From Gallaecimonas mangrovi (GTDB lineage Bacteria; Pseudomonadota; Gammaproteobacteria; Enterobacterales; Gallaecimonadaceae), in the NCBI RefSeq assembly GCF_003367375.1, contig NZ_CP031416.1, forward strand, positions 2,549,501-2,613,500: a DNA stretch of 64,000 nucleotides. The letters run 5' to 3'. Of the stretch, positions 3,395-62,818 are shown one piece after another (position 1 is the stretch's first letter; every line of letters begins with the position of its first letter). Position numbers and translations under genes: made by a program. A model generated the notes under the pieces. It saw nothing but the letters and a program-made list of their open reading frames with translations, was not told the origin of the DNA and did no database searches.

Positions 3395-3410
3395 TTAAGT
3401 CTTACCGAAA

Positions 3411-5251: not shown

Positions 5252-5252
5252 G

Positions 5253-6371: not shown

Positions 6372-6381
6372 AATCAATACT

Positions 6382-10189: not shown

Positions 10190-10209
10190 AAAAATTCCCA
10201 ATGTATAAA

Positions 10210-11094
10210 TTAATCTTCTTTCACTTTAACTAATTCCGCATAAGGCGGAATAGGGTCAGCAGGAAAATCGATATTTGATCGAAAACCCAACCAAAATTCT
10301 GGAGCATATATTATTTTTTTATTTTTTATAAAATATGAACCCCACCAGCTAAAACTGCTCGCACTCATAACTCCACCATCGCAAAGAGTCATAAAACGGA
10401 AGTCTTCCTGGAAAGTCTTGAAAGGGGAAATATATTTATTTCTCAAAAAATAGAAATTATCTTCAACAAACTTTTTATCATCACTAAAAAAAATGAACTT
10501 TGCATTCTTATCGGAATCAATTATTTTATTAATTGCATCAAGATAATAACTAATAGGAAGTAATGTACTCTTTCCATATATATAAAAATCTTTATAATCG
10601 CCACGTCTTATATGTATAAAATAATAGGTGGATTGATCATCCTTTTTAATAATTTCATTTTTTACGTTCGCAACCATTGCATCTAATTGAGGATCGAAAT
10701 CAAGTGACCAAGCATCTTTTTCGCAAAAAAAAGATTGGCTTTGATAAAAACCACTTTCAACAAGAGTTAAAAATGAAAAAAGCCCTTTAGACTTTATGAA
10801 ATTATTCTTTTCACGTTGATAGCCAATAACGTCTTCTTTAACAACACTTACCACATTAAATAATTTTAAAAATTTTATAATAGAAAATATTTTAGGAAAT
10901 ATATGATTAAAGAATTTATTCCTAAATTTTGTTTTTTTTATATTAAGTAAGTCAGTCGGTTTTAAAAAAACACTACAAAACTCATCTAGTTGGTACGTAA
11001 CAATTCTTTCATCAGCTTTATTTTTTATTTTTTTCAAAAATAAATATTGGAAAATTTGATTTCCAAAGCGTCCCTTCGACACAAAAAATATCAA
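10210..11094 (-). CDS. Alpha-1,2-fucosyltransferase-like glycosyltransferase (GT11)
   Basis: A 294-residue GT11-type protein. Three family blocks are visible: KGRFGNQIFQYLFLKK near the N-terminus, the GDP-fucose binding HIRRGDYKDF near residue 170 (H-x-R-R-x-D), and SASSFSWWGSYFIKNKK near residue 245. GT11 enzymes transfer L-fucose from GDP-L-fucose in alpha-1,2 linkage, which fits the gmd and fcl genes in the same operon. The first base pairs overlap the wzx stop codon as ATGA. AT-rich composition. The acceptor sugar is unknown. Fucose in this linkage can mimic host blood-group structures, but that would need chemical proof. Confidence 0.85.
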   Translation of the reverse strand: MIFFVSKGRFGNQIFQYLFLKKIKNKADERIVTYQLDEFCSVFLKPTDLLNIKKTKFRNKFFNHIFPKIFSIIKFLKLFNVVSVVKEDVIGYQREKNNFIKSKGLFSFLTLVESGFYQSQSFFCEKDAWSLDFDPQLDAMVANVKNEIIKKDDQSTYYFIHIRRGDYKDFYIYGKSTLLPISYYLDAINKIIDSDKNAKFIFFSDDKKFVEDNFYFLRNKYISPFKTFQEDFRFMTLCDGGVMSASSFSWWGSYFIKNKKIIYAPEFWLGFRSNIDFPADPIPPYAELVKVKED

Positions 11095-12368: not shown

Positions 12369-12380
12369 TTCAAATGACTA

Positions 12381-13349
12381 TTAGTCTCTTTTTATTGCAT
12401 TTCTAATCAGAACATATAATACGCTTAGAAACAGCCCTAATATAAACCCAACAATTAGCGCCAGTTTTGGCTTAGGGCTTGAAGGATGCTCAGCAGTTAC
12501 AGCCGGATCCACTGTTTGAAAAGCATACTCTCTTCGAACTTGAGTCAACATTAGCGTCGTAGTTTTCTGTTCAATTAACTGATAAAGCATAGCTCTTGTA
12601 TCTGCGACAGTGGTGCTTTCTAGCTGTCCATTTAAATAAGCAATACTATTTTTAGCATCTTTCATGTCACGCATGCGCATTGTTTCATTAAGATCGGAGA
12701 TTAACCACTCAACCCATTGTCTACATATAACCGGAGAGTAGAAACTTACACTAACAGTTGTCATCCCGGAGGCTTCACTATCCGGAGCAACTGTCATCAC
12801 TTTATTTAGGAAGTAATTAGTAGCACTGACAAGTGAAGGTTTTAAAGACATGCCATTTTTATTTTTCAACCAGATTTCATTTTTAGGATTGTATATATTT
12901 AAGTTATATTCGAATGAATTTCTTTTGGCATCCCATGAGTTAGTGGCCATCAGTGTAGCTAAAATTTTATGTTTAAGAATAAAATTACTTATAAATTGCC
13001 GAGATTGAAGAATTTGCAAAGCCAATGTTGTTTGATCAACAGTTCCTGTTGTCCCCATAGATAAACCAGCAATAGATGCAATACTTCCTAACTGGCCCAT
13101 GATGGACGATGAATTCTGGTCTGTGGATACAGGGGAAATTAGAGCCTGGGATTGATATTTTTCGGGCATAAATTTTGAAGTGATATATCCACCGATAGCA
13201 CATACAGCGGAAATAATTAAGATCAATACTTTGCTTCTCCAAAGTAAGATAAAAAGATCCTTTAGGTCAACCTCCCCCTCTTTTAAGGGTCTCACATTCG
13301 TATTATGTGTCATCATTTTATTTTTAAAAAATTCTTTTTCTTCATTCAT
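12381..13349 (-). CDS. wzz: Polysaccharide chain-length regulator Wzz
   Basis: A 322-residue inner-membrane protein of the Wzz/PCP family. It has a first membrane segment at about residues 36-57 after VDLKDLFILLWRSKV, a long periplasmic region, and a second segment near 296-316 preceded by a proline-rich PSSPKPK motif. There is no C-terminal tyrosine kinase domain, so it is the Wzz type rather than Wzc; it should set the length distribution of Wzy products. The start at 13349 lies only about 16 bases downstream of the T-tract of the terminator in the preceding gap, so production depends on read-through. An ATG pair at codons 12-13 is an alternative start. Confidence 0.88.
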   Translation of the reverse strand: MNEEKEFFKNKMMTHNTNVRPLKEGEVDLKDLFILLWRSKVLILIISAVCAIGGYITSKFMPEKYQSQALISPVSTDQNSSSIMGQLGSIASIAGLSMGTTGTVDQTTLALQILQSRQFISNFILKHKILATLMATNSWDAKRNSFEYNLNIYNPKNEIWLKNKNGMSLKPSLVSATNYFLNKVMTVAPDSEASGMTTVSVSFYSPVICRQWVEWLISDLNETMRMRDMKDAKNSIAYLNGQLESTTVADTRAMLYQLIEQKTTTLMLTQVRREYAFQTVDPAVTAEHPSSPKPKLALIVGFILGLFLSVLYVLIRNAIKRD

Positions 13350-13365
13350 ACAAGAAACTCAGTCT

Positions 13366-13401
13366 AAAAAATCCACCGTTATTGAAAGCGGTGGATTTTT
13401 T
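13366..13401 (-). terminator. Intrinsic terminator between the SLBB gene and wzz
   Basis: A perfect 13-bp inverted repeat, AAAAAATCCACCG (13366-13378) against CGGTGGATTTTTT (13389-13401), with a 10-base loop. Read on the minus strand the hairpin is followed by six T residues. It lies inside the polysaccharide operon, right after the first gene. The symmetry means it could work in both directions. Confidence 0.85.
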
Positions 13402-13410
13402 TAAGTTTAA

Positions 13411-16305
13411 TTAAAGTGATGAAATTGCGGCCAACGCAACTGCACTCTGATAAATAATTGAAGTCACGCTGCTCCAAGTCTTCAAGTTATCCTGATACTC
13501 GGTATCCAAAGGTACAACAATGGTATCTCCAGGTTTCAACTGACTATCATCATTGGATGTAAACCAACTATGGCTTTGATTGGGAATCATAACGGAGCCA
13601 TCAGCACGGATTACATACACTCGACTTTCATCCGCACGCTTACGGAAGCCGCCAGACAGGTTCAAATAGTCCTCAACATTCAATCCCTTCTTAAAACGAT
13701 GGCTACTGGCATATTGCACTTCACCCACAACAGAAATGGTTGTTGTTTTACGAGGAATATAGAGAATATCGCCGTCCTCAGCCTGCATATCCGCAGCTTT
13801 ATCTCCAGATAAAATATCTGGTAAATCAATAACGAGACGGCCAACAGGTTTAATATTCTGGAGCTCGCCAATCATGTTGGTCGCATCTTGGTAGCTAATC
13901 GTAGTTGTATTAGATGACAAAGCACGAGTAGCGACAGTACTACGTAACTGCTCAATCAGCTTATTAACCTGAATTTGTTCCCGCTCTTGAACTTGTTTAC
14001 GAGTAAAGACAGCACCATCGACGAAGGCGTATTGCGTTACACCGCCAGCGCGTTGAATTACATCATGTAATGTTTCACCACGATGAATAGTGTAGGAGCC
14101 AGGAAAACGCACTTCACCGCGAATTTCAACCGTACGATCAACTTGCCAATCAGGAGTGGCAAAAATATTTAAATTATCACGGCTCACCAAGGCAACATTA
14201 TCATTGCCACCTTTCATCGCATTTTCTAAATCAATTGCCTTATGAGTAACAGTAATACCATTAAGATCTTTATTATTACCCTTGGCACGGGTTAATTCAG
14301 CTCGCCCGTAATAGGCCGAAGCACTTAAGCCACCGGCCGCTTTAACTAGCCCTGTAATGTCGCCATTAACACTTAGCGGGTATTTACCAGGAACTTTTAC
14401 ATCACCTGTAATAGATACAACCTGTAGCGGTGCGCCATTACGCGCTTGCGCATTAAGCTTGGCCATTACGGGGTAAAGTAGCTCTTGGCGCTTCATTTCT
14501 GGTGTTAAAGCAATAAGCTTAGGGTCGGTATAAATGTTAGATAGCAGATGATTCACTTCATCTGATAATGTTGACTGTTGCTCATCTTGACTTAACCCAG
14601 TGTCACTAGAGCCACTAGTGGTATTAGTGGTGACAACAGTACCATCAGCAAGCTGCTGAGTTTTCTGAGTAGTCATTTGATTAGCGGCATCTTGTTGCTG
14701 TTTGGCCGTAGCCGCATCATCGATATTCATGCCAGCAACAGAATTAACGTCCTGTTTTTTCTTATCGTTATTATCTTGGATGTACTGGAAGCCATTACTC
14801 ATCAAGTCGCCGGTCAGCCAACGCTGGTCACTTGATGCTGTCAAAACGGGTTGCAGGTCTTGAGTTATATAGTCGTTGAGATCTTTTCGATTGATGTTGT
14901 CATCATCATAGTTAAAGACAAGGACAATATCTTTAGGTTGAAGCGTTAGATTATCTTTACTCGAGGGTTTAGTAACAGCGTTACCCAATTGGAACTGGTG
15001 AACTTGGATGTCACCTAACGCATTGACCTGACGAATGACAAGCGCGTAGTCAAGGTCGGCAGACAACCGTAAATCACCCCAAAGGCTTCGAATCAAGTCA
15101 TTTACATGCATACCTTGATGCCAGGCATATTTACCAGGACGAACTACCGCACCAGCTAATACAATGGCGTTGGTTGCTTGGTCTGAGGTTGCTCCTACGC
15201 GGAGTACATCACCACCTCTCACCTTCTCATCTAGCGCTTTTTTGTTTGTTAAATTAACGTTTTGAATATCGCGAAGGTTCTGACCATTAATACGTTCCAG
15301 AACCGATGACTGAGGATAAGCGTCTGAGTCAGCTCCCCCTGCCATTGCAAGTAAATCACCTAGCGTATCGTTTTTATTTAGCTCATATAATGCCGGACGG
15401 CGCACTTCACCTTTGACTTCGGCAAGGCCGGTATAAGGAGGAATGAAAACAACATCACCGGATTGCAGGCGAATATCGTCAGACGCGTCCCCTTTTAGCA
15501 ATAAGTCATAAAGATCAAAATGACGTACCGTTTTTCCACCACGCTTTATCACGATATGGCGCAGGCTACCGATGTCACTTACACCACCGGCAACAAATAA
15601 GGCCTGGGTAACCGTGGTCAAAGCTGGTAAAGAATAGGAACCGGGATATTTAGCCTCACCAGCAACAAAGACACTGATATTGCGCATGGTACTAAGACTA
15701 ATGGCCACACTTTGGCCAATCATTTCATCTTTCACCTTAGCCTTTACTACCTTCTTTACTTCACCAAATGTGAGCCCCCCTACTTTAATTGGGCCTAAAT
15801 CCGGCAAGTTGATGGTGCCATCACGGGAGACCGTTAAGCTTTGCTCCTGGCTCTCTTTACCGTACAAAATAAGGTCAATTACGTCGTTCGGGCCAACAAC
15901 GTAATCATCGGGTACAGAAGCAGTATCAACAGGGGCAAACATACTGACGTCGGCATCAAATAAATTCATGCCAAAGCGCTTAGGCTTGTCGGTACCATTA
16001 TCAGTATTCTGGGATTGCTGCTGTTGTAGCATCTGTTGGTTAAGCTGACGCTGCTGCAGAACCGAACTTTGGGTCTGCTGAACACCTTGTGAAGAGGCGC
16101 CACTGGAGGAGCTACCAGATGAACCGCCAGTCAGGCTTGATAAATCAATACCATATTGCTGAGCCAAAGCCTGCTGTTGGGAAGTGGACATGTTTTGAAA
16201 CTGCTGAATCATCGCTGGTGAAATCGACGATGTTGATAGGGACGCGGCGGATGCCGTCCCCCACACCACCAGCGTTAAAAGGAAAAGCCCAAATTTCTTA
16301 AACAC
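13411..16305 (-). CDS. Large SLBB-domain polysaccharide export protein (Wza-related)
   Basis: A 964-residue secreted protein. A signal peptide covers about residues 1-20 (cleavage after TASA); there is no lipobox cysteine, unlike Wza. A Gln/Ser-rich low-complexity region (38-105) is followed by the poly-saccharide export (PES) domain beginning at VVGPNDVIDLILYGK (about 137) and by several SLBB units recognisable by repeated (V/I)xGEVxxPGxY blocks: about 213, 297, 383, 640, 731 and 862. E. coli Wza has far fewer SLBB units and about 380 residues. The role is an outer-membrane or periplasmic exit channel for the polysaccharide. The start is GTG with GGAG seven bases upstream. It is the first gene after the JUMPstart leader and is followed by a strong terminator. 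Confidence 0.9.
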   Translation of the reverse strand: MFKKFGLFLLTLVVWGTASAASLSTSSISPAMIQQFQNMSTSQQQALAQQYGIDLSSLTGGSSGSSSSGASSQGVQQTQSSVLQQRQLNQQMLQQQQSQNTDNGTDKPKRFGMNLFDADVSMFAPVDTASVPDDYVVGPNDVIDLILYGKESQEQSLTVSRDGTINLPDLGPIKVGGLTFGEVKKVVKAKVKDEMIGQSVAISLSTMRNISVFVAGEAKYPGSYSLPALTTVTQALFVAGGVSDIGSLRHIVIKRGGKTVRHFDLYDLLLKGDASDDIRLQSGDVVFIPPYTGLAEVKGEVRRPALYELNKNDTLGDLLAMAGGADSDAYPQSSVLERINGQNLRDIQNVNLTNKKALDEKVRGGDVLRVGATSDQATNAIVLAGAVVRPGKYAWHQGMHVNDLIRSLWGDLRLSADLDYALVIRQVNALGDIQVHQFQLGNAVTKPSSKDNLTLQPKDIVLVFNYDDDNINRKDLNDYITQDLQPVLTASSDQRWLTGDLMSNGFQYIQDNNDKKKQDVNSVAGMNIDDAATAKQQQDAANQMTTQKTQQLADGTVVTTNTTSGSSDTGLSQDEQQSTLSDEVNHLLSNIYTDPKLIALTPEMKRQELLYPVMAKLNAQARNGAPLQVVSITGDVKVPGKYPLSVNGDITGLVKAAGGLSASAYYGRAELTRAKGNNKDLNGITVTHKAIDLENAMKGGNDNVALVSRDNLNIFATPDWQVDRTVEIRGEVRFPGSYTIHRGETLHDVIQRAGGVTQYAFVDGAVFTRKQVQEREQIQVNKLIEQLRSTVATRALSSNTTTISYQDATNMIGELQNIKPVGRLVIDLPDILSGDKAADMQAEDGDILYIPRKTTTISVVGEVQYASSHRFKKGLNVEDYLNLSGGFRKRADESRVYVIRADGSVMIPNQSHSWFTSNDDSQLKPGDTIVVPLDTEYQDNLKTWSSVTSIIYQSAVALAAISSL

Positions 16306-49846: not shown

Positions 49847-50589
49847 GCAAAGCTCCTGGCCAGGGTGCCGAGGATGAGGTTCCAACCGTCCACCAGCACA
49901 AACAGCATTAGCTTAAAGGGTAGCGACACTATCATCGGTGACAACATCATCATACCCATCGCCATCAATACCGATGCCACCACCAGGTCGATAATCAAAA
50001 ACGGGATAAACAGCATAAAACCGATTTGAAAGGCGGTTTTCAGCTCGGAGGTAACAAAAGCGGGGATCAGAATGCGCATTGGCACATCCTGCGGGGTATC
50101 AAAGGCATCAACCCCGGCCATGGAGGCAAAGGTTTTTACGTCCGTTTCCCGGGTTTGCTTGAGCATAAAGGTTTTAAGCGGCTTTTGTGCCACCACCAGC
50201 GCTTGCTGAAAGGTCATCTGATCTTTGGAATAGGGCTGCACGGCATTGTTGTAAATCTGGTCAAACACCGGGCTCATCACAAAAAAGGTCATGAACAGGG
50301 AAATGCCCATAATCACTTGGTTAGAAGGCACCTGCTGCAAACCCAGCGCTTGGCGCAGTATCCCCAGCACCACCACAATGCGAGTAAAGGCGGTCATCAT
50401 CATCAAGATGGCGGGAATAAAGGTCAGCAGTGTCATCAGCAGCAATACTTGCAACGTGACACTGTATTCCTGGCCGCCATTGGCGGTGTTGGTGACAGTT
50501 ACCGCCGGCAAGGAGCCGTCAGGTAAAATGGGATTGGCAAAAGAGACTATTGGCAGCAGCAGCAGTCCCCAGAGAAACCAGCGTTTCAC
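49843..50589 (-). CDS. fliP: Flagellar export protein FliP
   Basis: A 248-residue protein with a cleavable N-terminal signal ([18 protein letters not shown]) and four membrane segments. The signature blocks [20 protein letters not shown] near residue 65 and [20 protein letters not shown] near residue 190 are typical. It forms the core of the export channel with FliQ and FliR. Overlaps fliO and fliQ by 4 bases each. Confidence 0.96.
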
Positions 50590-50906
50590 TCGCTCTCCTT
50601 GTTAACCGGGGTATCGAGGGCCTTGATGAGGCGAATGTCATTACCACTGACCGAAATCAGCATCTGTTCTTCGCCCACTTCCACCAGCAACAACCTGGCA
50701 CGCGCCCCCAGTTGGGTTTGTGCCACCACTTTAATGGGGCCGGCTTTAAATTGCGGCATATGACGGCGGGCAAAATAAAGCACCGCAATGAGCAGTGCTA
50801 CAACGCCCAGCAGCGACATAACCAAGGTACCGAGCTTATCGGTGGGGGTTGTCATTGGGCTTTTATCGGCCGCCAAGGTGGCGGCACTGTACAACCAACT
50901 GATCAT
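50586..50906 (-). CDS. fliO: Flagellar export assembly protein FliO
   Basis: A 106-residue single-span protein: membrane segment at about 24-46 and a short cytoplasmic domain with [20 protein letters not shown], the FliO motif. FliO helps assemble FliP. There is no signal peptide at the N-terminus. It overlaps fliN by 4 bases. Confidence 0.92.
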
Positions 50907-51298
50907 TTGAGCTTTTTGATCCTTTCTTGCTGGCTGATAACGTCGGTGAGGCGGATACCAAACTTGTCGTTCACCACCACCACCTCGCCATGGGCGATAA
51001 GGGTACCGTTTACCAGCACATCCAGCGGTTCACCTGCCACCCGGTCCAGCTCTACCACCGAACCTTGGTTTAATTGCAGCAAGTTACGAATACTGATCTT
51101 AGAGCGGCCAACTTCCATGGAAATGGTAACCGGGATATCCAAAATGGTATCCAGGCGGCGCTTTTCTTCGGCAGTTAGCTCGGGGCCGGCATCATCATCG
51201 CCACTGAACTCTTCCAGTTCAACCGATTCCGGTTCCTCTTGCTCGGACATGGCTGCAGCCCATTCGTCAGCCAGTTTCTGTTCGTCATCAGAGACCAT
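50903..51298 (-). CDS. fliN: Flagellar motor switch protein FliN
   Basis: A 131-residue switch protein: an acidic N-terminal region (1-45) and a C-terminal SpoA domain with IPVTISMEVGRSKISIRNLL and GEVVVVNDKFGIRLTDVISQ. FliN makes the bulk of the cytoplasmic C-ring with FliM. It overlaps fliM by 11 bases. Confidence 0.96.
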   Translation of the reverse strand: MVSDDEQKLADEWAAAMSEQEEPESVELEEFSGDDDAGPELTAEEKRRLDTILDIPVTISMEVGRSKISIRNLLQLNQGSVVELDRVAGEPLDVLVNGTLIAHGEVVVVNDKFGIRLTDVISQQERIKKLK

Positions 51299-52364
51299 CG
51301 ATATCCCCTTCCCAATCGGTTGCTAACTCTTCCAGCCCGGAGATGTTGTCGATACGCACCCCACGGCGAGTAATATTTTGCATCTCGGCCTTGGCCGAGC
51401 GCGGTCGTTTCATTTTTTCGGTGATTTTCAGTGCCACTTGGTCGCCACTGCGGCCCATCTGTGCCCTGAAGGTGGGTAAGTCTTCCACAAACACCGTTAA
51501 ATTCTCAGGCATTTCCACCGGGATAACATCGCCCGCTTTTAACTGCATCATTTTGCGCAGCGTCATGTCGGTTTCCAGCAGCTTGGCGCGAATGCCGACC
51601 GGCACGTCCATCAACTCATCGCGCAGTGCTTTTGACCAGCGGTGGTCGGTGTCTTCTTTGTCAGACTGCACACCGGCGTCCAACAATTCACGGATGGGTT
51701 CGAGCATTGAATACGGCATGGCAATATGAAAATCACCGCCGCCCCCTTCAAGTTCAATGTGAAACGACGACACCACTATCACCTCGGTGGGCGAAACAAT
51801 GTTGGCCATCGACGGATTCACTTCCGAGTCTAAATACTCAAAGGCCACATCCATTACCGGCGCCCAGGCTTCGGTGTAATCTTCGAACACCAGCTTTAAC
51901 AGCATCTGGATGATACGCCTTTCGGTAGGGGTAAATTCCCGGCCCTCAATACGGGCATGGAAACGGCCATCACCACCGAAAAAGTTATCCACCAGAATAA
52001 AAACCAGCCGCGCTTCAAGCGTAATAAGGGCGGTGCCCTTAAGCGGCCTGAAACGCACCATGTTGAGGCTGGTGGGTACAAATAGGGTATGGACGTACTC
52101 ACCAAACTTCATGGTTTGTACGCCATTAATGGAGACCTCCGCCGGGTGGCGCATCATGTTAAACAAGCTGATGCGCATGTGGCGGGCAAAACGCTCATTA
52201 ACGATCTCCAGGGTCGGCATCCGGCCCCGGACAATACGGTCCTGAGAGGAAAAGTCGTACTGCTGAACCGGTTCACCCGAGCCCGCACCGCCTTCCTCTT
52301 CAACCTCGTCAACCCCGTGTAAGAGGGCGTCGATTTCGTCCTGCGATAAGAGATCGCTCACCAA
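51288..52364 (-). CDS. fliM: Flagellar motor switch protein FliM
   Basis: A 358-residue switch protein. The N-terminal CheY-P binding peptide reads LSQDEIDALLHG (residues 5-16), the middle CheC-like domain includes RMPTLEIVNERFARHMRISL near residue 49, and a SpoA domain closes the protein. It joins FliG to FliN in the C-ring and receives CheY-P. It follows fliL after 7 bases. Confidence 0.97.
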   Translation of the reverse strand: MVSDLLSQDEIDALLHGVDEVEEEGGAGSGEPVQQYDFSSQDRIVRGRMPTLEIVNERFARHMRISLFNMMRHPAEVSINGVQTMKFGEYVHTLFVPTSLNMVRFRPLKGTALITLEARLVFILVDNFFGGDGRFHARIEGREFTPTERRIIQMLLKLVFEDYTEAWAPVMDVAFEYLDSEVNPSMANIVSPTEVIVVSSFHIELEGGGGDFHIAMPYSMLEPIRELLDAGVQSDKEDTDHRWSKALRDELMDVPVGIRAKLLETDMTLRKMMQLKAGDVIPVEMPENLTVFVEDLPTFRAQMGRSGDQVALKITEKMKRPRSAKAEMQNITRRGVRIDNISGLEELATDWEGDIDGL

Positions 52365-52371
52365 GCCTCCT

Positions 52372-52908
52372 TTACTGCATTACAAATCCGGTGATAAGCA
52401 CCCGCTCAACCACCGGTTTGCCTGCCACTTTCGTCAGGGCGTCGCGCACCGCTTCTTGGGAAGTGGTACGCAAACTCTCCCTGCCCTGACTGGTTGCCAA
52501 CTGCTCTTCAGTGAATTGACTGAAGGTTTGCAGCAAGACACTTTCAATCAAGGGTAAATTTTTCTTGGCCAAATCTTCGTCTGTGGCCCCGCGCACCATC
52601 ACTTGCGCGTTGATTTGCACCACCCGCGAACCGCGGTTGCCTGGCACATTAAAGGTAAAGGGGTTAGGCAGCGCTACATAAAGCGCTTCTTCACCCGGTT
52701 TCGGTGCTGCGCCTTTCTCACCGTCTTTACCGTCGGTTTGTTCGGTTTTAGCGCCATCGGCCGCCTTGTCTTTGTCGCCCGACATCAAGAACCAGGCCAC
52801 ACCACCACCAATAATCAGTAACAGCACCACCGCCGCCACAATAATGATGACGAGCTTTTTCTTGCTACCACCTTTTTCAACAGGTTCTAGTTGTAATTCG
52901 TCAGCCAT
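52372..52908 (-). CDS. fliL: Flagellar basal-body-associated protein FliL
   Basis: A 178-residue single-span inner-membrane protein: membrane segment at about 20-43 (KLVIIIVAAVVLLLIIGGGV), an acidic linker, and a periplasmic SPFH-like domain with LPLIESVLLQTFSQFTEEQL. FliL surrounds and supports the stator. It lies 49 bases after fliK; no strong promoter was recognised in that gap. Confidence 0.94.
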   Translation of the reverse strand: MADELQLEPVEKGGSKKKLVIIIVAAVVLLLIIGGGVAWFLMSGDKDKAADGAKTEQTDGKDGEKGAAPKPGEEALYVALPNPFTFNVPGNRGSRVVQINAQVMVRGATDEDLAKKNLPLIESVLLQTFSQFTEEQLATSQGRESLRTTSQEAVRDALTKVAGKPVVERVLITGFVMQ

Positions 52909-52957
52909 GGTTCTCTATCCGATTTTATCCTTCCCCTACTTTACCTTAGCTATTGGC

Positions 52958-54697
52958 TCAGGCGTAGGCATCAACAAGCCCATCAGGGGTCAGGGTATAA
53001 CGATAGGGCAAGCTTTCATCAACTTCACCCTCATCACCCGTCCAGAAACCACCGTTGTTCTGGCCCTGCCACTGTCCCTGGCGACCATCACCGCCATTAT
53101 TGTTATTGGCTTGGTCGCGAACCTGACCGTCCGCCAAGTTAAAGCCCTGGCCTGCCATCATGTCTTTTAGCTTAGGCATGGCATCTTGTAACCACTCGCG
53201 AGTTTGGGCATGGCTGGCCTGGAATTGGACCTGGGCATCATGGTGATGCACCTGCACGCGGATCATCAAGCTCCCCAGCTCTGGTGGGTCCAGTTGAATG
53301 TGGGCGTGCTTGAGGTTTTTTGACAGCATCATGCCAATTTTGTCGGTTAACGCATCGGCAAAACGGTTTTGGGCAATCAGTTGGCTCTTATCAGCATTGG
53401 CTTGCTGGCTGGTATCTTTAGGGCCGTCCAGAGGCGATGGCGCATTTTGCATCGGCTGGTTGTTGCCGTTATTGCCAGTTGCTGCCGAGTTATCCGGTTG
53501 CTGGCCGGCCAGGGCTTCAATGCCATGGGCGTGCTGCGGCTGGGCCGCGGCTATTTTACTGACATCACCAGGGTGGGCACTACCGGCAACAACAGGCGCC
53601 AGGCCTTTATGGTCTTGGCCAGCGGCTTTGCCATCAAGCCCGGCCAATAGGCTACTCAGGTCACCTACTTTGGCGTCTTTTTTCTTATCTGCTTTATCGG
53701 TTTTACCATCAACATCGCTGACGGCGTTTGCGTCATCTTGATCTTGATTGGCAGCTTTCGCCGCGCGGCCTTGCAGTAAGGCAGTCATTGCTTGGCTGCT
53801 TTTCGCGCTCGATTCGGCTTTGTCTTTATCCGCCGCGGTTTTCGCTTTTAAACCGCTTAAGAGTGCCTCGCCTTGCGGCGTTTTGCTGTCTTGCTCATCC
53901 GCTAACTGGGCACTGGCGGCAGCCTTGGCTTTATCGTCGGCCGCTTTCACTTCCACCCAATTACCGGCAGCGTCTTTGATAAAAAGCGGTTTGTCGTCAC
54001 TTTGTGCCAATTTTTTGGCATCTTTGTCGCCGTCGCCATCCGCCTTACCTTTCAAGGCTTTGCCGTCACCGTCTAGTGATGCGTCTTTGTCGTCATCACC
54101 TTTAGCGTCAGCATCGCCTTTACCAGCACCTTTAACCAGGGCCTGTAATACGGCGGCTTTACCAGAATGCGGTGAAGCTGAATGTGCAAGCATCTCGTCA
54201 CCGTCTTTGTCGCTGGTCTTTTTATCGTCGTTAAGCTGAGTTTGGGCAAAAGCCACTAAGTTAATGAGCGCATCCCCGTCCTCGCCCTTTTTCTTAGCGT
54301 GCTCACCTTTGCCGTCTTTGTCTTTAGCGTGGGTTTTGCTGTCGTGCTTGGCCTTGGCTTCTTGTAGGCCATGCTCCGACTTTTCCCCTTTTACCGGTGT
54401 TTTTTCACTCTGCGCAGCATCTTTGGCTTTGTCTGCTGCCTTGGCTTTATCGCCAGCATCGGCTTTGTCAGCAGCATCGGCTTTGTCATGGTCGCTTTTG
54501 GCCTGCTCAGCCTTTTTACGTTGCTGATGGGCTTGCTGAGCTTCGGCTGCCTTTTCATGGCGTGCAGCCGGCACCGATTTGCCGCCGTTGTCCATCGCCT
54601 TACCAAAGAGGTTGGCAAAATGATCATTGCCTTTTTCTTTTGTTTTCGAGCTGTTATCGGCAGCTGCATTGTGTTGAGTGAGCGCTGAGACTTGCAT
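52958..54697 (-). CDS. fliK: Flagellar hook-length control protein FliK
   Basis: A 579-residue protein. The N-terminal two-thirds are low complexity, dominated by Asp, Lys and Ala (for example DKADAADKADAGDKAKAADK near residues 77-96), and the C-terminal hook-length domain (about 455-545) contains HAHIQLDPPELGSLMIRVQV and FQASHAQTREWLQDAMPKLK, the family signature. FliK measures the hook and signals FlhB to change substrate. The open frame extends to a TTG at 54715, but the ATG at 54697 is the better start. A sigma-54 promoter lies within the end of fliJ. The Asp/Lys-rich ruler region is longer than in many relatives and contains short in-frame DNA repeats. Confidence 0.94.
   Translation of the reverse strand: MQVSALTQHNAAADNSSKTKEKGNDHFANLFGKAMDNGGKSVPAARHEKAAEAQQAHQQRKKAEQAKSDHDKADAADKADAGDKAKAADKAKDAAQSEKTPVKGEKSEHGLQEAKAKHDSKTHAKDKDGKGEHAKKKGEDGDALINLVAFAQTQLNDDKKTSDKDGDEMLAHSASPHSGKAAVLQALVKGAGKGDADAKGDDDKDASLDGDGKALKGKADGDGDKDAKKLAQSDDKPLFIKDAAGNWVEVKAADDKAKAAASAQLADEQDSKTPQGEALLSGLKAKTAADKDKAESSAKSSQAMTALLQGRAAKAANQDQDDANAVSDVDGKTDKADKKKDAKVGDLSSLLAGLDGKAAGQDHKGLAPVVAGSAHPGDVSKIAAAQPQHAHGIEALAGQQPDNSAATGNNGNNQPMQNAPSPLDGPKDTSQQANADKSQLIAQNRFADALTDKIGMMLSKNLKHAHIQLDPPELGSLMIRVQVHHHDAQVQFQASHAQTREWLQDAMPKLKDMMAGQGFNLADGQVRDQANNNNGGDGRQGQWQGQNNGGFWTGDEGEVDESLPYRYTLTPDGLVDAYA
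54454..54488. repeat. In-frame 18-base direct repeat in fliK
   Basis: CAGCATCGGCTTTGTCA occurs twice (54454-54470 and 54472-54488) with a period of 18 bases, equal to six residues of the ADKADA type in the FliK ruler region. Adjacent imperfect copies extend the tract to both sides. Unequal slippage here would change FliK length without breaking the frame. Confidence 0.8.
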
Positions 54698-54729
54698 AGG
54701 ACGGTCCAATACCAATCAGATGGTTAAGA

Positions 54730-55167
54730 CTATGCAATTGGCGTTCCAACCTTACGGTTCACCAAGTCATCCAATTCCCGCTGCTCGCGGCGCTGCGCCT
54801 GTAGATTGGCTTCTTGCTGTTTGCGCTCCAGCAATAGCGCAATGGCTTTGGTTTCTTGGCGGGCGATACGCCAGTCATTTTCGCGGCTGGCAACCGCTTG
54901 CTGGTGTTGCACCAACTGCCCTTGCAGATCGTCAAGGCCACTATCTAAACGGGCAACAAAGTTTTGGTAGTGCACCATGTTCACCGCATTAAGGCCGCTA
55001 CCGGCTTTTTGTTGCATTTCACGCAGGTAGTCGTTGCGATAACGCTGCAAGGTATTGATTTTGCCTTGCAATGCCGCCAAGGCTTCACGGGCTTGCGCCA
55101 ATTGCGCCAGGGCTTTGTCTTCGGTGTCTTTACGCTGATCGAACACCAGCTCTAATGATTTACTCAT
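54730..55167 (-). CDS. fliJ: Flagellar export chaperone FliJ
   Basis: A 145-residue, almost wholly coiled-coil protein (rich in Gln, Leu, Arg and Glu) starting [20 protein letters not shown]. FliJ links the FliI ATPase ring to FlhA and recycles chaperones. It overlaps fliI by 4 bases. The last 20 bases contain the sigma-54 promoter for fliK. Confidence 0.92.
54733..54748 (-). promoter_or_regulatory. Sigma-54 promoter upstream of fliK (inside the fliJ 3' end)
   Basis: On the minus strand TGGAACGCCAATTGCA, with GG and GC ten bases apart and TTGCA at -12, differing from the consensus TGGCACG-N4-TTGCA only at one base of the -24 box. It lies within the last codons of fliJ, 36 bases before the fliK ATG. 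Confidence 0.88.
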
Positions 55168-56512
55168 GCACCCTCCCCGGCGGCTTTAGCCAACAATTCC
55201 AAGGCTTGCAGGCATTCGTCATAAGGACAAACTTCCTGCATGGCCTGGCGTAAAAATAAATTCATCGGATCGCGCAGCCGAATGGCGGTATCGACTTTGG
55301 GGTCGGAACCCTGGCGGTAAGCACCCACCTGGATCAGATCCCGCGACTGCTCGTAAGCTGAAAATAGCGCTTTTACCCGGCGCGCCTGCAGTTGATGCTC
55401 TTCAGTGGTGACCTGCGGCATCACCCGAGAAACCGAAGCACCAATATCAATGGCCGGATAATGGCCGCTATCGGCCAGGGCCCGTGACAGCACAATGTGG
55501 CCATCTAAAATGGCACGGGCGGCATCCGCCACCGGATCTTGCAGGTCATCACCTTCAGAAAGCACGGTAAAAAAGGCCGTAATACCGCCCTGGCCGTCGC
55601 CACCGTTACCTGCCCGTTCAACCAACCCGGGCAACCTGGCAAACACCGACGGCGGATAGCCTTTGGTCGCAGGCGGTTCACCCACCGCCAAGGCGATTTC
55701 CCGCTGCGCCTGGGCGTAGCGGGTTAATGAGTCAACCAACAGCAGCACATTAAGGCCCTGGTCGCGAAAATACTCGGCAAAGGTTAAGGCCGTTTCGCAG
55801 GCTTTTAGCCGCATTAATGGGCTGGTATCGGCGGGGGCGGCCACCACTACTGCCCGGCGGCGCCCCTCAACACCTAAAATTTCGTCAATAAATTCACGGA
55901 CCTCACGGCCCCGCTCCCCCACCAGGCCCACCACTATCACATCTGCGCTGGTGCCACGGGTCATCATGCCCAGCAGCACTGACTTACCAACCCGGAGCCG
56001 GCGAAAAGGCCCATCCGCTGGCCTTGGCCAACGGTCAAAATGGTATTAATGGCCCGAACCCCCACATCAAGGGGTTGACGAATGGGGCGGCGCGTAAGCG
56101 GGTTCAAAGGCCGGCCCTTAAAGCCAACACGGTTTTCAGCCCGCACCGGGCCTTGGCCATCAAGGGGGCGGCCTAGGCCGTCTACCACCCGGCCAAGCAG
56201 GCTCATGCCCACCGGCAAGGTGGCGGAAACGCCAAGGGGGGTGACCCGAGCACCGGGCAGAATGCCCGACACATCTTGGTTAGGCATTAAATAGAGGGTG
56301 TTGTTACCAAAGCCCACCACTTCGGCCTCAACATCTTGGCTGTGGCCTTCAATGCGGCAAAGGGAGCCAATGGGTGCGCGGCACCCCTGGGCTTCAAGGG
56401 CTAAGCCAACCACCCGTACCAAACGCCCAGCGACGCTGGGTTTTGGCACCTGCATTAGCCGTTGGTAACGGCTTAGGCTGTCAGCCAAGTGCCGACGTTC
56501 AATCTCCTTCAC
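55164..56512 (-). pseudogene. fliI: Flagellum-specific ATPase FliI, frame broken by a 1-base deletion
   Basis: Two overlapping frames cover one fliI gene. The 5' frame (56512-55964) encodes residues 1-174 of FliI and then runs out as LVSQCCWA; the 3' frame (55979-55164) encodes the rest, including [39 protein letters not shown] and the C-terminus. Joined, they give about 449 residues, the normal FliI length. The break lies in the Walker A loop: the minus strand reads GGCTCCGGGTTGGTAAGTCA where GGGG before TTGG would restore GSGVGKS. One G is missing at about 55991-55993. FliI is the hexameric ATPase of flagellar export. Everything else in the gene is intact, so this is a very recent mutation or a homopolymer sequencing error. 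Confidence 0.93.
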
Positions 56513-57266
56513 GGCTCAGCCCTGCCTCGGTCAGTAGCCCTTGGCACAAAATACGCAGCCGTTCTTGCAAGTCGACCTCTACCAAGGATTGGCCAGCGTC
56601 AATACGGCATTGGCCATGGCGAAGGGTTGGCTCTTCGCGAATTTTCCAGCGCCGGTCTTTGAGGTCTTCCTCGCTGTATTGCTGATGCAGCAAGCGCGCA
56701 TCGGTAGGTGCCACTTCGATGGTAATGGCGGTGTCGTCATCAGACAGCGCTTCGATACCTTGGCGGATCATGTGGTGGATAATATCTTGGTCGGTTTTCA
56801 ATTCATGGCCCAGCACCGCTTGCATGCCAGCCACCAGCAAGCTAACCAGCTGTCCTTCAAGACGCTGGTCGCGGTCATCAAGGGGTTTAACCAATTGGTC
56901 GGCCATGGCTTGCCAGTGGTTTACCGCATCGGCAATTTGTTGTTGCCCGGCTTGCAGGCCGTCTTGCAAGCCTTGCTGGTAGCCCCGCTCCTGGCCTTGC
57001 TGATGACCTTGGGCAAAACCTTCTTCATGGCCTTCTTTTAAGCCCTGCTCGCGGCCTTCGGCAAAACCTTCGTCTACCGCGTCGGCACGCAGTCCTTCCA
57101 GTTCGCTGATGCTCAGCCCTTGCGGCCGACTTGGCGCGGTTTCTGGCTCAGCGTCCTGGCCCTGCTTACGCCTGTGAATATGCAGCGCCTTGGACACTTC
57201 GTCCTGCGAGGGCGGAGTAAAGTCGTCGCCTTCCCAACGCTGAATATCGTCGCTCACGTCGTTCAC
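56499..57266 (-). CDS. fliH: Flagellar export stator protein FliH
   Basis: A 255-residue FliH. It has a long run of G-x3-G repeats (about residues 64-106, such as EGFAEGREQGLKEGHEEGFA), the hallmark of FliH helices, and a C-terminal domain with TLRHGQCRIDAGQSLVEVDL that binds FliI. It inhibits FliI until the ATPase docks at the export gate. The first start is a GTG at 57266, but the GTG at 57257 has AGGTG in a better position. It overlaps fliI by 14 bases. Confidence 0.94.
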   Translation of the reverse strand: MNDVSDDIQRWEGDDFTPPSQDEVSKALHIHRRKQGQDAEPETAPSRPQGLSISELEGLRADAVDEGFAEGREQGLKEGHEEGFAQGHQQGQERGYQQGLQDGLQAGQQQIADAVNHWQAMADQLVKPLDDRDQRLEGQLVSLLVAGMQAVLGHELKTDQDIIHHMIRQGIEALSDDDTAITIEVAPTDARLLHQQYSEEDLKDRRWKIREEPTLRHGQCRIDAGQSLVEVDLQERLRILCQGLLTEAGLSREGD

Positions 57267-57270
57267 CTAA

Positions 57271-58305
57271 TCAGAGGAATTCATCGGCACCGCCGCCACC
57301 CAAGGAGATCTCACCTGCATCCGACAAGCGTCTGGCAATGCTCAAGATCTCTTTCTGGGCCACTTCCACATCCGACAAGCGAATGGGGCCCATGGCTTCG
57401 AGGTCGTCGCGCATCAGATCGGCGGCCCGTTTCGACATGTTCTTGAACATCTTTTCACGCAGGCCGTCATCGGCGCCTTTAAGGGCTTTAATCAAGGTGT
57501 CTTGCTGAATGTCACGCAGCAGCGTCTGAATGGCCCTGTCGTCCACGTCGGCCAGGTTTTCAAAAACAAACATCAAGTCTTGAATTTGTTGGCTCAGCTC
57601 TTCGTCGGCTTCGCGGATACCTTCCATCAACTGGTTTTCGACGGCGGTATCGAGGTAGTTCATGATGTTGGCAGCGGCTTTCAAGCCGCCCATCTTCGCC
57701 GCTTGCGCGCCACTTTGGCCAGCAAACTGCTTTTCCATAATTTCGTTAAGTTCTTGCAGCGCCGCCGGTTGCACCTCTTCGAGGTTGGCAATACGCATTA
57801 AAAGGTCTAAGCGGTCACGCTCAACAAACTGCGACAAAATCTCGGCGCTTTGGTCCGGGTCGAGATACGACAGTACGATGGTCTGAATTTGCGGGTGCTC
57901 GTTTTGAATGATGCTGGCCACTTGGCGCGCATCCATCCATTTCAGCGATTCCAGGCCCTTGGCATTGCCACCGAGAATAATTTTGTCGATAAGCGCGCCG
58001 GCTTTGTCTTCACCCAAGGCATGGTTCAAGGCTTTACGGATAAAGTCTTCGGAGTCAAAACCAATGGACGAATACTGCTGGATGTCCTCAATAAATTGTT
58101 TGTGGACCGCCATCACCTTGTCTTGGCTGAAGTCTTCCATCGACGCCATCATCATGCCCACTTTCTGCACCTGCTTAGGCTCTAGGTGGCGCAAAATAGA
58201 GGCGGCATCTTCCTCGGTGAGGCTCAGCAGCAAAATGGCCGTTTTTTCAATGCCATTGAGTTTGCTGACATCAAAGGTCTTTTTCTCTGCGACTTCATTT
58301 GCCAT
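57271..58305 (-). CDS. fliG: Flagellar motor switch protein FliG
   Basis: A 344-residue switch protein with the three helical domains of FliG: KLNGIEKTAILLLSLTEEDA near the N-terminus, the middle EHPQIQTIVLSYLDPDQSAE containing the conserved EHPQ motif near residue 134, and the C-terminal torque helix with MFVFENLADVDDRAIQTLLR. It couples the stator to the rotor. It overlaps fliF by 11 bases and ends 4 bases before fliH. Confidence 0.97.
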   Translation of the reverse strand: MANEVAEKKTFDVSKLNGIEKTAILLLSLTEEDAASILRHLEPKQVQKVGMMMASMEDFSQDKVMAVHKQFIEDIQQYSSIGFDSEDFIRKALNHALGEDKAGALIDKIILGGNAKGLESLKWMDARQVASIIQNEHPQIQTIVLSYLDPDQSAEILSQFVERDRLDLLMRIANLEEVQPAALQELNEIMEKQFAGQSGAQAAKMGGLKAAANIMNYLDTAVENQLMEGIREADEELSQQIQDLMFVFENLADVDDRAIQTLLRDIQQDTLIKALKGADDGLREKMFKNMSKRAADLMRDDLEAMGPIRLSDVEVAQKEILSIARRLSDAGEISLGGGGADEFL

Positions 58306-60061
58306 CGTCTGTTAACCACCCTTTGACCACCTGAGCCGACAGCTCGGGTTCGTTCGCCACCAAGGCACGAATTGCTTTGAGCACTTCTTCGTCTTTACGA
58401 AGGTCAGGCAACTGTACACCACCTACCATGGTAATACCCGGCGCCAAGGCATCTTCACCGTCCATACCGGAGAAGCTTTCTAACGCGTCGCCGCCGCCAC
58501 CCATTCCCATGTCACCAGCCAGCGCCAGGTCAGTATCTTGGGCGTTGCCACCCAGCAGGCGTTTCAGAAGCGGCCTTACCACCACGAAAATCAGCACGAT
58601 AATGATAAGGGCACCGGCCAGCACTTTCGCTAAACGGGCGAACCAGCCGGTTTGGTAGAACGGAATGGGCTCATCAAGGCCTGTATCCGGGCGCGCAAAG
58701 GGCACCGACAATACTTCCAGGCTGTCACCACGGGTTGGGTCTAAGCCCAGGCCCGCCATCAACAGCTTTTTAATGCTCGCCAATTCGTCGGCACTGCGTG
58801 GCACTTCGGTCACTTTGCCGTCGGCGCCCACTTGTTTCTTGTAGTCCACCGCTACCGATACCGTCATCCGGTCAATGGTGCCCACTTGTTGGCGGGTATG
58901 ACTGATGGTGGTATCCAATTCATAGTTTTTGGTGCTTTCAGAGCGGCTAGAGCCTGGCGTTTGTACGGTATTAGCCTTGGTATTGGTGGCATCTTCCGGG
59001 ATCTGTGAATCCACTGGTGGCTGGTTAGACAGCGCACCGGGCACGCCGCCAGCGGTACTGCCGCCACGGTTTTCTTTAACGTCCATTTCTGAACGCACCG
59101 CCGGCTGGTCAGGGTTGTAGCGTTTTTGGGTTTGTTCGACGGCAGTAAAGTTCATGGACACGTCCACCTGAGCGGTATAGTTGTCCAGGCCCACTACCGG
59201 GATCATGATGGAATCAACCTTGTCCATGTACTGCTTCTCGCGAGCGGTTTCCAGCTCTAATTCCTTGCGAGATTCTGCGGCCATGGCATTTTGGCTGCCG
59301 GAGTTGAGCAGACGGCCATTTTGGTCGGTTACCGTAACCTTATCCGGGCTCAAACCGTGCACGGCAGAGGCCACCATATCAACGATGGAATCCACTTCTT
59401 CTTGCTTTAAGGTCAAGCCATTACTCAGCGCCAGCACCACGGTAGCCGAGGGCTTTTGACGCTCACGCAAGAACACCGACTCTTTGGGAATGGCCAGCAG
59501 CACCCGCGCTCTTTTCACCGCTCTTAATTGCTCAATGGCGCTGGCGAGTTGTTTTTCTCGGCTGAACTTCAGGCGCTCTTGTTCCAGGCGTTGGCTAACA
59601 CCAAAGCCCATATCTTTCATCAAGATATCGTCGCCGTTGTCGCTTTCTTGGTTGCTGCTCAAACCGGCACGGGTCATGGCCAGTTTGATTTTTTGATAGT
59701 CGCCATCAGGCACCGATACGGTGTTACCTTCGACTTTGTAGGTGAATTTGTGTTGGTCGAGAAAATCGAGGGTAGAAACCAGTTGGTCGGTTTCCATACG
59801 GCCAAGGGGACGATAATCAGGCTCTTTGGCCCACAGGAACACCAGTACCACCAGTGCCAGACCAATAGCCAAACCCAAAATCAAGCTGACTTGACGCAAC
59901 ATATCGGCATTGCCGAGGTTGGACATCAAGCTAAAGCTTTGCTCGCCAGTATCGCTACCGCCGCCCACAGTGTTGTTACTGCTGGTGTTTTCAACTGCTT
60001 CTGCAGGCACCGGCGCCGCGGCATTGCCGACGGTGGCCAGTTGGGTGTTCTCGTCCGCCAC
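58295..60061 (-). CDS. fliF: Flagellar MS-ring protein FliF
   Basis: A 588-residue protein with two membrane segments (about residues 58-78 and 462-482), a periplasmic ring-building domain beginning LVSTLDFLDQHKFTYKVEGN and containing ERQKPSATVVLALSNGLTL, and a cytoplasmic C-terminus that binds FliG. The start is GTG at 60061 with AAGGAG six bases upstream. It forms the MS-ring base of the flagellum. It follows fliE after ten bases. Confidence 0.97.
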   Translation of the reverse strand: MADENTQLATVGNAAAPVPAEAVENTSSNNTVGGGSDTGEQSFSLMSNLGNADMLRQVSLILGLAIGLALVVLVFLWAKEPDYRPLGRMETDQLVSTLDFLDQHKFTYKVEGNTVSVPDGDYQKIKLAMTRAGLSSNQESDNGDDILMKDMGFGVSQRLEQERLKFSREKQLASAIEQLRAVKRARVLLAIPKESVFLRERQKPSATVVLALSNGLTLKQEEVDSIVDMVASAVHGLSPDKVTVTDQNGRLLNSGSQNAMAAESRKELELETAREKQYMDKVDSIMIPVVGLDNYTAQVDVSMNFTAVEQTQKRYNPDQPAVRSEMDVKENRGGSTAGGVPGALSNQPPVDSQIPEDATNTKANTVQTPGSSRSESTKNYELDTTISHTRQQVGTIDRMTVSVAVDYKKQVGADGKVTEVPRSADELASIKKLLMAGLGLDPTRGDSLEVLSVPFARPDTGLDEPIPFYQTGWFARLAKVLAGALIIIVLIFVVVRPLLKRLLGGNAQDTDLALAGDMGMGGGGDALESFSGMDGEDALAPGITMVGGVQLPDLRKDEEVLKAIRALVANEPELSAQVVKGWLTDDGK

Positions 60062-60071
60062 GTACTACTCC

Positions 60072-60440
60072 TTACACCGGCATGTTCATCACATCCTGGT
60101 ACGCTTGAATCAACTTGTTGCGTACCTGGATGGTGGCTTGGAAAGCGATGCCTGATTTTTGACTGGCGATCATGGCATCAGCAATAGACACCTTGGGGTC
60201 ACCCATTTCAACGGCGGTTTGTTTCGCCGAGGCATCTTGCTGGAGACCGTTAACCTTGTCCAGTGCCTGAGTAAAGAGGTTAGCAAAGTCACTTTGTACC
60301 GAGCGCGGCGCTTGGCTTTGGCCCAAGCTGGCCACGCTGTCGGTATTTTGTGTTTCCAAGCTGGCACGAGGGCCTTGCGCTTGGTTAATAAGTGACTGCA
60401 TCTGTTGCAGCAAGGCTGAGTTTTCACCACCGATCTTCAT
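60072..60440 (-). CDS. fliE: Flagellar hook-basal body protein FliE
   Basis: A 122-residue rod-joint protein: a variable N-terminal half and the conserved C-terminus [20 protein letters not shown] followed by [18 protein letters not shown]. FliE joins the MS-ring to the rod. First gene of the fliE-fliJ operon, about 40 bases after a sigma-54 promoter. Confidence 0.95.
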
Positions 60441-60480
60441 GTCATTATTCCGTCGTTAGTGACTGTGACAAACACCTTCT

Positions 60481-60496
60481 TGCAAGTGGCAGGCCA
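60481..60496 (-). promoter_or_regulatory. Sigma-54 promoter upstream of fliE
   Basis: On the minus strand TGGCCTGCCACTTGCA, with GG and GC exactly ten bases apart and a perfect TTGCA -12 box. It sits in the 60-base gap between flrC and fliE. FlrC is the expected activator, as for the class III operons of Vibrio. Confidence 0.92.
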
Positions 60497-60500
60497 AGTT

Positions 60501-61811
60501 TTATGCAGGGATGCTGATCCCCGCATCACGCAGCCTGGCGAGCTTATAACGCAAGGTTCTGGGGCTAATACCAAGCTTCTCGGCAACCGCCTGACGCGAG
60601 CCATTACAGGCTTCCAAGGTATCAATAATGATCTGCGCTTCCTGCGCCTTAAGCTCACCGGATAAACCGTCGGTGTTCGGCAGTTCAAGCTCGGCATCCG
60701 GGGCGGATTCGATATACAAGTGCTCGGGCTCGATCACCAAGCCGTCGCTTAAAATCAGCGCCCGCTGCATCACGTTATCAAGCTCACGCACATTACCCGG
60801 CCAGTTATGGCGCTTAAGCTGCTCAGCAGACGCTGCAGACAGCTCTGGCACCAGGCCACGGCAGTGACGGCCAAGCAGATGCGCCGCCAAGGGCACAATG
60901 TCATCGGGCCGGTCTTTAAGAGCAGGCCAGGTCAGCGGGAACACATTCAGGCGGTAATATAAATCTTCACGAAAACGCCCTTCGGCCACCGCTTCTTTAA
61001 GATCGCGGTTGGAAGTGGCCAGTACCCGCACATCCAAGGAAATGGTTTTACGGCCTCCTAAGCGCTCGACTTCCCGCTCTTGCAGTACCCGCAGCAATTT
61101 CGCCTGCAGGCCCAAGTCCATCTCGGTAATTTCATCAAGCAGCAAGGTGCCGCCGTTGGCTTGCTCAAATTTCCCGGGGCAAGCTTGAATGGCACCGGTA
61201 AAGGCGCCCTTTTCATAACCAAACAAGGTTGCTTCAAGCATGTTGTCGGGGATGGCCGCGCAGTTAATGGCGACAAAAGGATTGGCAGCGCGCTCGGAAT
61301 GCTGGTGCACGTAGCGCGCCAGCACTTCTTTACCGGAGCCACTTGGGCCCAGCACCATCACGGTGGCATCGGTTTTGGCAACTTTGTCGGCCAGTTTTAA
61401 CAGCGCCAGACTTTTGGCATCTGCCACCACCGGGCCCTTGTCGTCATCGGGCTCGCTAAGGGCGTAGCGGCTAACCATGTTAATCAGCACTTCTGGCGCA
61501 AACGGCTTGGCCATGTAATCAATGGCGCCAAGCTTCATGGCTTCAACGGCATCGTTTACCTTGGCATGGGCGGTCATCAGCAGCACCGGCAACTCTGGGT
61601 AGGTTTTGCGCACCGAACGCAATAGCGCCATGCCATCCATGCCGGCCATTTGCACGTCAGACACCACAATTTGGAAGTCACTGGCTTTTAATGCCAGCAA
61701 GGCTTCTTCGCCATTGATAGCGCTTTTTACCGCAAAACCAGCCAGTTCCAGGGTATCAACCAGGGCTTCTGACAGCGCGGCGTCGTCTTCAACAATCAAT
61801 ACCTGAGTCAT
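60501..61811 (-). CDS. flrC: Sigma-54 flagellar response regulator FlrC
   Basis: A 436-residue NtrC-type activator: receiver domain (1-120) with phosphoacceptor D52 in VVSDVQMAGMDG, AAA+ domain with Walker A GPSGSGKEVLARYV near residue 152, the sigma-54 contact loop GAFTGA in GYEKGAFTGAIQA, and a Fis-like DNA-binding C-terminus (GSRQAVAEKLGISPRTLRYK). Phosphorylated by FlrB, it should drive fliE, fliK and flhA, whose sigma-54 sites are visible. It overlaps flrB by 4 bases. Confidence 0.96.
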   Translation of the reverse strand: MTQVLIVEDDAALSEALVDTLELAGFAVKSAINGEEALLALKASDFQIVVSDVQMAGMDGMALLRSVRKTYPELPVLLMTAHAKVNDAVEAMKLGAIDYMAKPFAPEVLINMVSRYALSEPDDDKGPVVADAKSLALLKLADKVAKTDATVMVLGPSGSGKEVLARYVHQHSERAANPFVAINCAAIPDNMLEATLFGYEKGAFTGAIQACPGKFEQANGGTLLLDEITEMDLGLQAKLLRVLQEREVERLGGRKTISLDVRVLATSNRDLKEAVAEGRFREDLYYRLNVFPLTWPALKDRPDDIVPLAAHLLGRHCRGLVPELSAASAEQLKRHNWPGNVRELDNVMQRALILSDGLVIEPEHLYIESAPDAELELPNTDGLSGELKAQEAQIIIDTLEACNGSRQAVAEKLGISPRTLRYKLARLRDAGISIPA

Positions 61812-62818
61812 GCGTTGTCCTCCACGAGCGGTAGGATGAGGGTCATTCGAGCCCCTTGGTCGCCATTGGCCATATGCAGTTGGCCACCATGGGCCTGGGC
61901 AACAGCACGCACCACCGACAAGCCAAGGCCAGTGCCGTGGCTTTTGGTGGTAAAGAAGGGTTCGGCGATTTTAAACAGTAATTCTTCGGGAATGCCGGGG
62001 CCGTCATCGGTCAACGAAATGGACAGCCATGGCGCTTGCTGAGTTACGCTAAGCGTGAGCTTGTGGGCACCGGCTTGCAGGGCGTTATGAATCAAGTTAC
62101 CCAGTGCTGACACCAGCGCGCTGGCCGAGCCCAGCAGGCGAGCATCGGCGGCACCGTTGTCAATGTCCAGCTCGCCATGATGGGTTTCGAGCATGGATTC
62201 AACCGAAGCTTGCAGCTGATTGACCAACTCGCCAGCGCTGAGCTTGTCTGCCACTTTTTGGTCGCCGCTTTTGGCAAACAGCAGCATGTTGTTCATCTGA
62301 CTTTCCAAGTCCTTTAACCGCGCCACCAATTTGTGTTGGAAGCGGTCGTGGGTAGCATCGGGCAAGTCTTTATTGAGCTGGCCGGCATAGAGCATGGCAG
62401 CCGACAGCGGCGTGCGAATTTGATGAGCGAGTGACGCCACCATGCGGCCAAGGGACGATAACCGCTGCATGTGTGCCATACGCGTTTGCAGACTGCGGGT
62501 TTCGGTAAGGTCGGAGATCACAATCAGTTGGCCTGGTTCACCCTCAATAGGGCAAATGTCCAGTTTGACCCGGCGGCCATTAACCAACGACACCTCGGCA
62601 CCGTCATCTTCACGGGGACGAAAGGCACGGGTAACCACATCCAGCCACTTGCATTGCAGCAAGGGTTCACCCAGCAGCGATACGGCGGTGGTGTTGGCTT
62701 CGGTCACCCAGCCATTACCGTCCAGCACCACGACCCCGACCGGCAGAATGCTTAACAGCTTGTCGAGTTGTTTAGCGGCCGGCTCGGTTGCCGGGTACCA
62801 CTGTTGTGCCAAAGACAT
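61808..62818 (-). CDS. flrB: Flagellar sensor histidine kinase FlrB
   Basis: A 336-residue cytoplasmic kinase: a PAS domain (about 18-108), the HisKA region with the phosphorylated H132 in MVASLAHQIRTPLSAAMLYA, and a HATPase domain with N-box NLIHNALQAGAH and G-boxes DDGPGIPEE and GTGLGLSVVRAVAQA. No membrane segment is seen, so it senses an internal state, presumably of the assembling basal body. It phosphorylates FlrC. The ATG follows GAGGTGAG. Confidence 0.95.
   Translation of the reverse strand: MSLAQQWYPATEPAAKQLDKLLSILPVGVVVLDGNGWVTEANTTAVSLLGEPLLQCKWLDVVTRAFRPREDDGAEVSLVNGRRVKLDICPIEGEPGQLIVISDLTETRSLQTRMAHMQRLSSLGRMVASLAHQIRTPLSAAMLYAGQLNKDLPDATHDRFQHKLVARLKDLESQMNNMLLFAKSGDQKVADKLSAGELVNQLQASVESMLETHHGELDIDNGAADARLLGSASALVSALGNLIHNALQAGAHKLTLSVTQQAPWLSISLTDDGPGIPEELLFKIAEPFFTTKSHGTGLGLSVVRAVAQAHGGQLHMANGDQGARMTLILPLVEDNA

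Follow-up and report, generated by a model that had tools for sequence, protein, structure and literature searches.

A one-base frame break in the Walker A loop of polar-type fliI in the Gallaecimonas mangrovi assembly and its probable origin as an assembly error

In the dual flagellar systems of Vibrio, Aeromonas and Plesiomonas, two flagellar clusters are found and each of them possesses its own fliI. In Vibrio alginolyticus, the polar and lateral FliI are reported to be 53.5% identical (PMC10956519), and the same dual polar/lateral arrangement is reported for Plesiomonas (PMC4481668). A spontaneous one-base frameshift which disables the export apparatus of one of the two systems is described for the dual-flagella strain V. 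alginolyticus YM51, where a seven-G run in flhA2 gained one base and the lateral system was hit. The Vibrio flagellar run mutations given in that source sit in runs of 7 and 8, and the one of 8 is called reversible (PMC10956519). In Salmonella, loss of FliH-FliI-FliJ can reportedly be bypassed by raised flagellar gene expression or higher proton motive force, and loss of FliH-FliI by a mutation of flhB (PMC4905995). One-base errors which break genes are also documented in long-read assemblies, where the indel errors described are of one base, show an excess of deletions and are scattered across unrelated genes (PMC12007338). The genome of Gallaecimonas mangrovi likewise carries two flagellar clusters with a fliI in each. 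Unlike the dual systems of Vibrio, Aeromonas and Plesiomonas, its polar fliI is broken in the assembly, and the lateral position of its second flagellum is predicted from gene content.

The window, which is the whole analysed stretch of 64,000 nucleotides (positions 2,549,501 to 2,613,500 of contig NZ_CP031416.1), carries a polar-type flagellar operon on its minus strand. In this operon fliI is situated at its usual place between fliH and fliJ, and it is composed of two open reading frames in different frames, 56512..55964 and 55979..55164, both on the minus strand. The N-terminal part of this polar-type fliI (55964..56512, 182 codons) is 93% identical to the congener genome G001 and reaches a stop shortly past the frame break, while the C-terminal part (55164..55979, 271 codons) is 96% identical. 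The N-terminal part covers positions 1-148 of the FliI_clade1 profile (TIGR03496, 414 positions) and the C-terminal part covers 152-412, so that the two together represent the profile near end to end. Their scores are 166.6 and 444 bits, respectively, both below the curated cut-off of 619.1 bits. The likeness to FliI_clade1 consists in the profile match of both halves and in the position between fliH and fliJ, and the difference in the split inside the Walker A loop.

In the alignment with G001, the gene is one base short in the Walker A (P-loop) stretch at 55985..56002 on the minus strand, and the frame changes there at residue 174 of 448. The first-pass annotation had described fliI as broken by a single missing base inside this motif, with two halves in different frames which meet at the ATP-binding loop. 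Both descriptions were confirmed by the open reading frames, the profile matches and the alignment with G001. The locus is a broken FliI gene and not a FliI protein as read. Because the frame changes inside the loop, neither half can hold the whole P-loop, and the earliest usable start in the frame of the C-terminal part falls after the P-loop lysine codon. The stop codon of the N-terminal part overlaps an ATG in the frame of the C-terminal part (ATGA, 55964..55967, minus strand). A restart at this overlap is possible, and its product would be without the whole P-loop.

The family search was carried out in 40 genomes including that of G. mangrovi (G000). Among the matches listed, 33 genomes gave a match over the cut-off, and the only split copy over the cut-off was the polar fliI of G. 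mangrovi; intact copies are present in all four congeners (G001-G004). Comparison with close relatives had been proposed in the first-pass annotation as a check, and in 110 of 110 loci from relatives it showed a single open frame running through the Walker A loop. These loci consist of a set of 30, the four congeners among them, and a further 80. The loop was verified by a motif filter in 105 of these loci; the five which failed the filter were read by eye, and in two of them (L021 and L025) the loop is unusual and the gene is possibly non-flagellar. At the break, the G run is 3 bases long. Since the position of the missing base lies outside any G run in the four congeners, the break site is, on the aligned sequences, not a conserved homopolymer. 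The proposal that the GGG is a shrunken GGGG was not established for the same reason.

The neighbouring genes of the operon are intact. fliH (56499..57266, minus strand) shows 77% identity to G001 over residues 4-255 of 255 and fliJ (54730..55167, minus strand) shows 82% identity over 145 of 145 residues, both genes being named by position and reading. The remaining flagellar and chemotaxis frames in the window align to G001 across nearly their full length, except fliK, which is open and whose alignment is limited to the last quarter. fliO, fliN and fliQ, which were partly hidden by an antisense open reading frame in the main comparison, were found to be whole when examined separately. At its right edge, the window ends within a reading frame. 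The first-pass annotation called the rest of the flagellar and chemotaxis genes intact; this is true of the genes of the window which were compared with G001, and needs the correction that the genome also has a second full-length fliI outside the window.

This second fliI (C1:2825196-2826476) belongs to a second flagellar cluster which occupies at least C1:2815431-2834950 (locus L117) and holds its own flhA, fliE-J, flg genes, flgN, a MotY-like protein and a sigma-54 activator. Pfam families were found in eight of the nine proteins scanned from this cluster (FlgK, FlgI, FlgE, FliF, FlhA, FlgN, MotY and the sigma-54 activator), and its remaining genes were named by reading. The second FliI is 49% and 59% identical to the two polar halves. 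Because the identity between polar and lateral FliI of V. alginolyticus is similar, the two clusters appear to represent the usual dual-flagella pattern, and the gene content suggests that the second flagellum is lateral. Among the matches listed, two full-length fliI copies each were observed in G001, G003 and G004, and one in G002. A role of the second FliI in an injection system was rejected, as the cluster has flagellar hook, ring, rod and MotY families.

Two other features of the genome were observed. At the left end of the window, the region 1-16305 has a low GC content (35-37% over 1-16000, compared with 53-55% at the other end) and carries genes for synthesis and export of surface polysaccharide. 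Nine of its 13 open reading frames of at least 230 aa were scanned and seven gave Pfam matches, for example to glycosyltransferases, GDP-mannose dehydratase, Wzz and a polysaccharide export protein; the stretch is probably an acquired O-antigen or capsule island. Elsewhere on the chromosome, the type I-F CRISPR gene csy1 is located at C1:2888786-2889943. It was found in two of the five genomes of the genus, those of G. mangrovi and G001, and type I-F clusters are reported for G. mangrovi HK-28 and G. pentaromativorans CEE_131 (PMC12539734).

The frequency of frame breaks in the assembly was analyzed by comparing 1.2 Mb of the G. mangrovi genome with two congeners, G001 (0.4 Mb) and G004 (0.8 Mb). 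Open reading frames of at least 120 aa and an identity of at least 60% were required, and the coding frame was recognised by a third-position test. Seven of 484 distinct coding matches (170,585 aa) were frame-broken in G. mangrovi, compared with one of 498 in the reverse comparison, and the sole break in the reverse direction is a 28-residue C-terminal tail. The excess has a Fisher p of 0.036, or 0.007 when this tail is not counted. The seven genes were obtained from 10 rows after removal of two rows which repeat the fliI and proB events in antisense, and of one event at C1:2488342, an antisense open reading frame spanning the gap between two intact genes. Cruder surveys in which antisense open reading frames were included (3/209 vs 3/221; 8/351 vs 3/500) are superseded by these counts. 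Besides fliI, single-base frame breaks were found on C1 in an M61 peptidase (near 2162480), metH (2192203), a fatty-acid CoA ligase (2307900), a proB (2495208), a copper-type P-ATPase (3093372) and an AsmA-like gene (3294050), the last two being named by reading.

Frame-aware alignment of the seven genes gave 11 shifts, of which one at residue 11 of the CoA ligase was excluded as lying at the alignment edge. The remaining shifts, about ten in number, are all of a single base and comprise 9 deletions and 1 insertion (two-sided p 0.02). Their sites lie in slightly longer runs than the background (3.4 vs 2.8, p 0.03). Three genes have two shifts each, 26 to 152 bases apart, which is far from random (p 5e-5); such clustering would be expected both from patchy consensus quality and from decaying genes. 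By eye, no clear interior nonsense mutation was seen among 502 matches. The probability of finding none in ten changes is 0.11, 0.03 or 0.006 if nonsense changes made up 20, 30 or 40%, respectively. Internal stops appeared in 25 rows for G. mangrovi, which were set aside by eye as extensions ahead of the true start, antisense open reading frames or run-on past a frame break, and in 8 rows of the reverse comparison. In the congener G001 (contig C5, L156-L166, joined coordinates 211691-212863, about 291,700-292,900 on the contig), a gene of about 417 codons was found to have an in-frame TGA at a position where G. mangrovi has a cysteine codon; this may reflect a nonsense mutation, with recoding of the codon as a less likely alternative.

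Selection on the broken genes was also analyzed. The ratio of amino-acid to silent changes on the own branch of fliI is 0.12-0.14, and the values for flhA, fliM and fliP are 0.10, 0.10 and 0.13, so that this comparison gave no clear sign of relaxed selection on fliI. An old pseudogene was rejected on this ground. When unique changes in both halves of fliI were counted, G. mangrovi showed 9 amino-acid changes against 2 in G001, and 69 silent changes against 28. The constraint of the broken genes ranges from the 12th to the 85th percentile of the 479 genes kept, and the six genes other than fliI lean to weak constraint, a trend which is not significant (p 0.15). Intact stand-ins were found for all three broken genes checked out of the seven, namely the second fliI, a second proB, and metE for metH; those for proB and metH are present in all five genomes of the genus. 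Among 49 core genes anchored on E. coli K-12 (19,507 aa), which we take to be essential, no frame break was found where 1.14 were expected (P 0.32), a number too small to decide. Matches were obtained for these 49 of the 53 anchors, although only partial ones for secA and accA; 11 of the genes lie in the stretch compared first.

Taken together, the break belongs to the assembly and is most probably absent from the cell; if the cell does carry it, it is an ordinary loss mutation. A residual single-base assembly error is a fairly probable origin of the split fliI, and it is favoured because similar one-letter breaks occur in unrelated genes of the same assembly. For this reason the sequencing error, which the first-pass annotation had given as one option, is now rated the likeliest. 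We infer that the excess of breaks is technical and that fliI is part of it. The points counted for an error are the excess itself (7/484 vs 1/498), the predominance of deletions (9 of 10 shifts), the lack of clear nonsense changes in the survey, the unrelaxed state of fliI and the open frames of the other flagellar genes of the window. The breaks resemble the long-read indel errors described in PMC12007338 in being one-base indels with a deletion excess, scattered across unrelated genes; the rate of 7 in 484 genes is modest compared with those errors. If the break is such an error, the living strain would probably carry an intact polar FliI export ATPase.

Several points were counted against an error: the stand-ins for three of three genes, the 0 of 49 core genes broken, the clustering of shifts, the lean to weak constraint and the 9 against 2 amino-acid changes in fliI. 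The first three also speak for a true and recent loss of function of polar fliI in this isolate, which is a possible but rather doubtful origin of the break. Such a loss would be tolerated because cells in culture do not need polar swimming and still have a second flagellar system, which carries an intact fliI of its own; the presence of stand-ins for metH and proB too is consistent with this. A precedent is the flhA2 frameshift of YM51, which is alike in that a one-base change disables the export apparatus of one of two flagellar systems, and differs in its seven-G run and in affecting the lateral system, whereas in G. mangrovi the run has 3 bases and the polar system is hit (PMC10956519). 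On the other hand, like breaks are in excess in unrelated conserved genes and the shifts are nearly all one-base deletions. Real decay should yield some nonsense changes and none was clear in the survey, and fliI lies among open neighbours without clear relaxation.

If the break were real, the polar FliI ATPase would be dead, since the N-terminal fragment ends in the P-loop and a restarted C-terminal fragment would not have the P-loop lysine. Polar export would then fail or drop to a low level. Crippled flagellar export, as predicted earlier for a real break, is likely on this reading, but it is not certain, because the bypass of FliH-FliI loss is known in Salmonella (PMC4905995) and a second, intact FliI is encoded. 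It is improbable that the break is real and fixed in the species with the lateral-type FliI also serving the polar export gate, an arrangement of one ATPase for two flagella per cell.

A reversible length switch or programmed frameshift, by which some cells or ribosomes would make full-length FliI, is hardly credible: the two frames do overlap and the single-base break does lie beside a 3-base run, but this run is only 3 bases long against the 7 and 8 of the Vibrio flagellar mutations (PMC10956519) and has no counterpart as a G run in the four congeners, the RNA downstream of the site is no more stably folded than shuffled sequences (z 0.40), no split occurs among the 110 relatives' loci, and similar breaks are found in unrelated genes. 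The ordinary downstream fold and the unsplit loci of the relatives, together with the lack of any Rfam match in window positions 50000-62000, speak against the programmed frameshift, and the slippage switch raised in the first-pass annotation found no support in the short run, its absence from the congeners or the fold.

If the split fliI is an assembly error, as is favoured here, it cautions against inferring loss of motility from a one-base break in a single assembly; such breaks are several times commoner in the G. mangrovi assembly than in those of its congeners. If the break is real, it would add another example of a bacterium with two flagella in which one system was lost spontaneously, and one could then ask whether a lateral FliI can serve a polar export gate.
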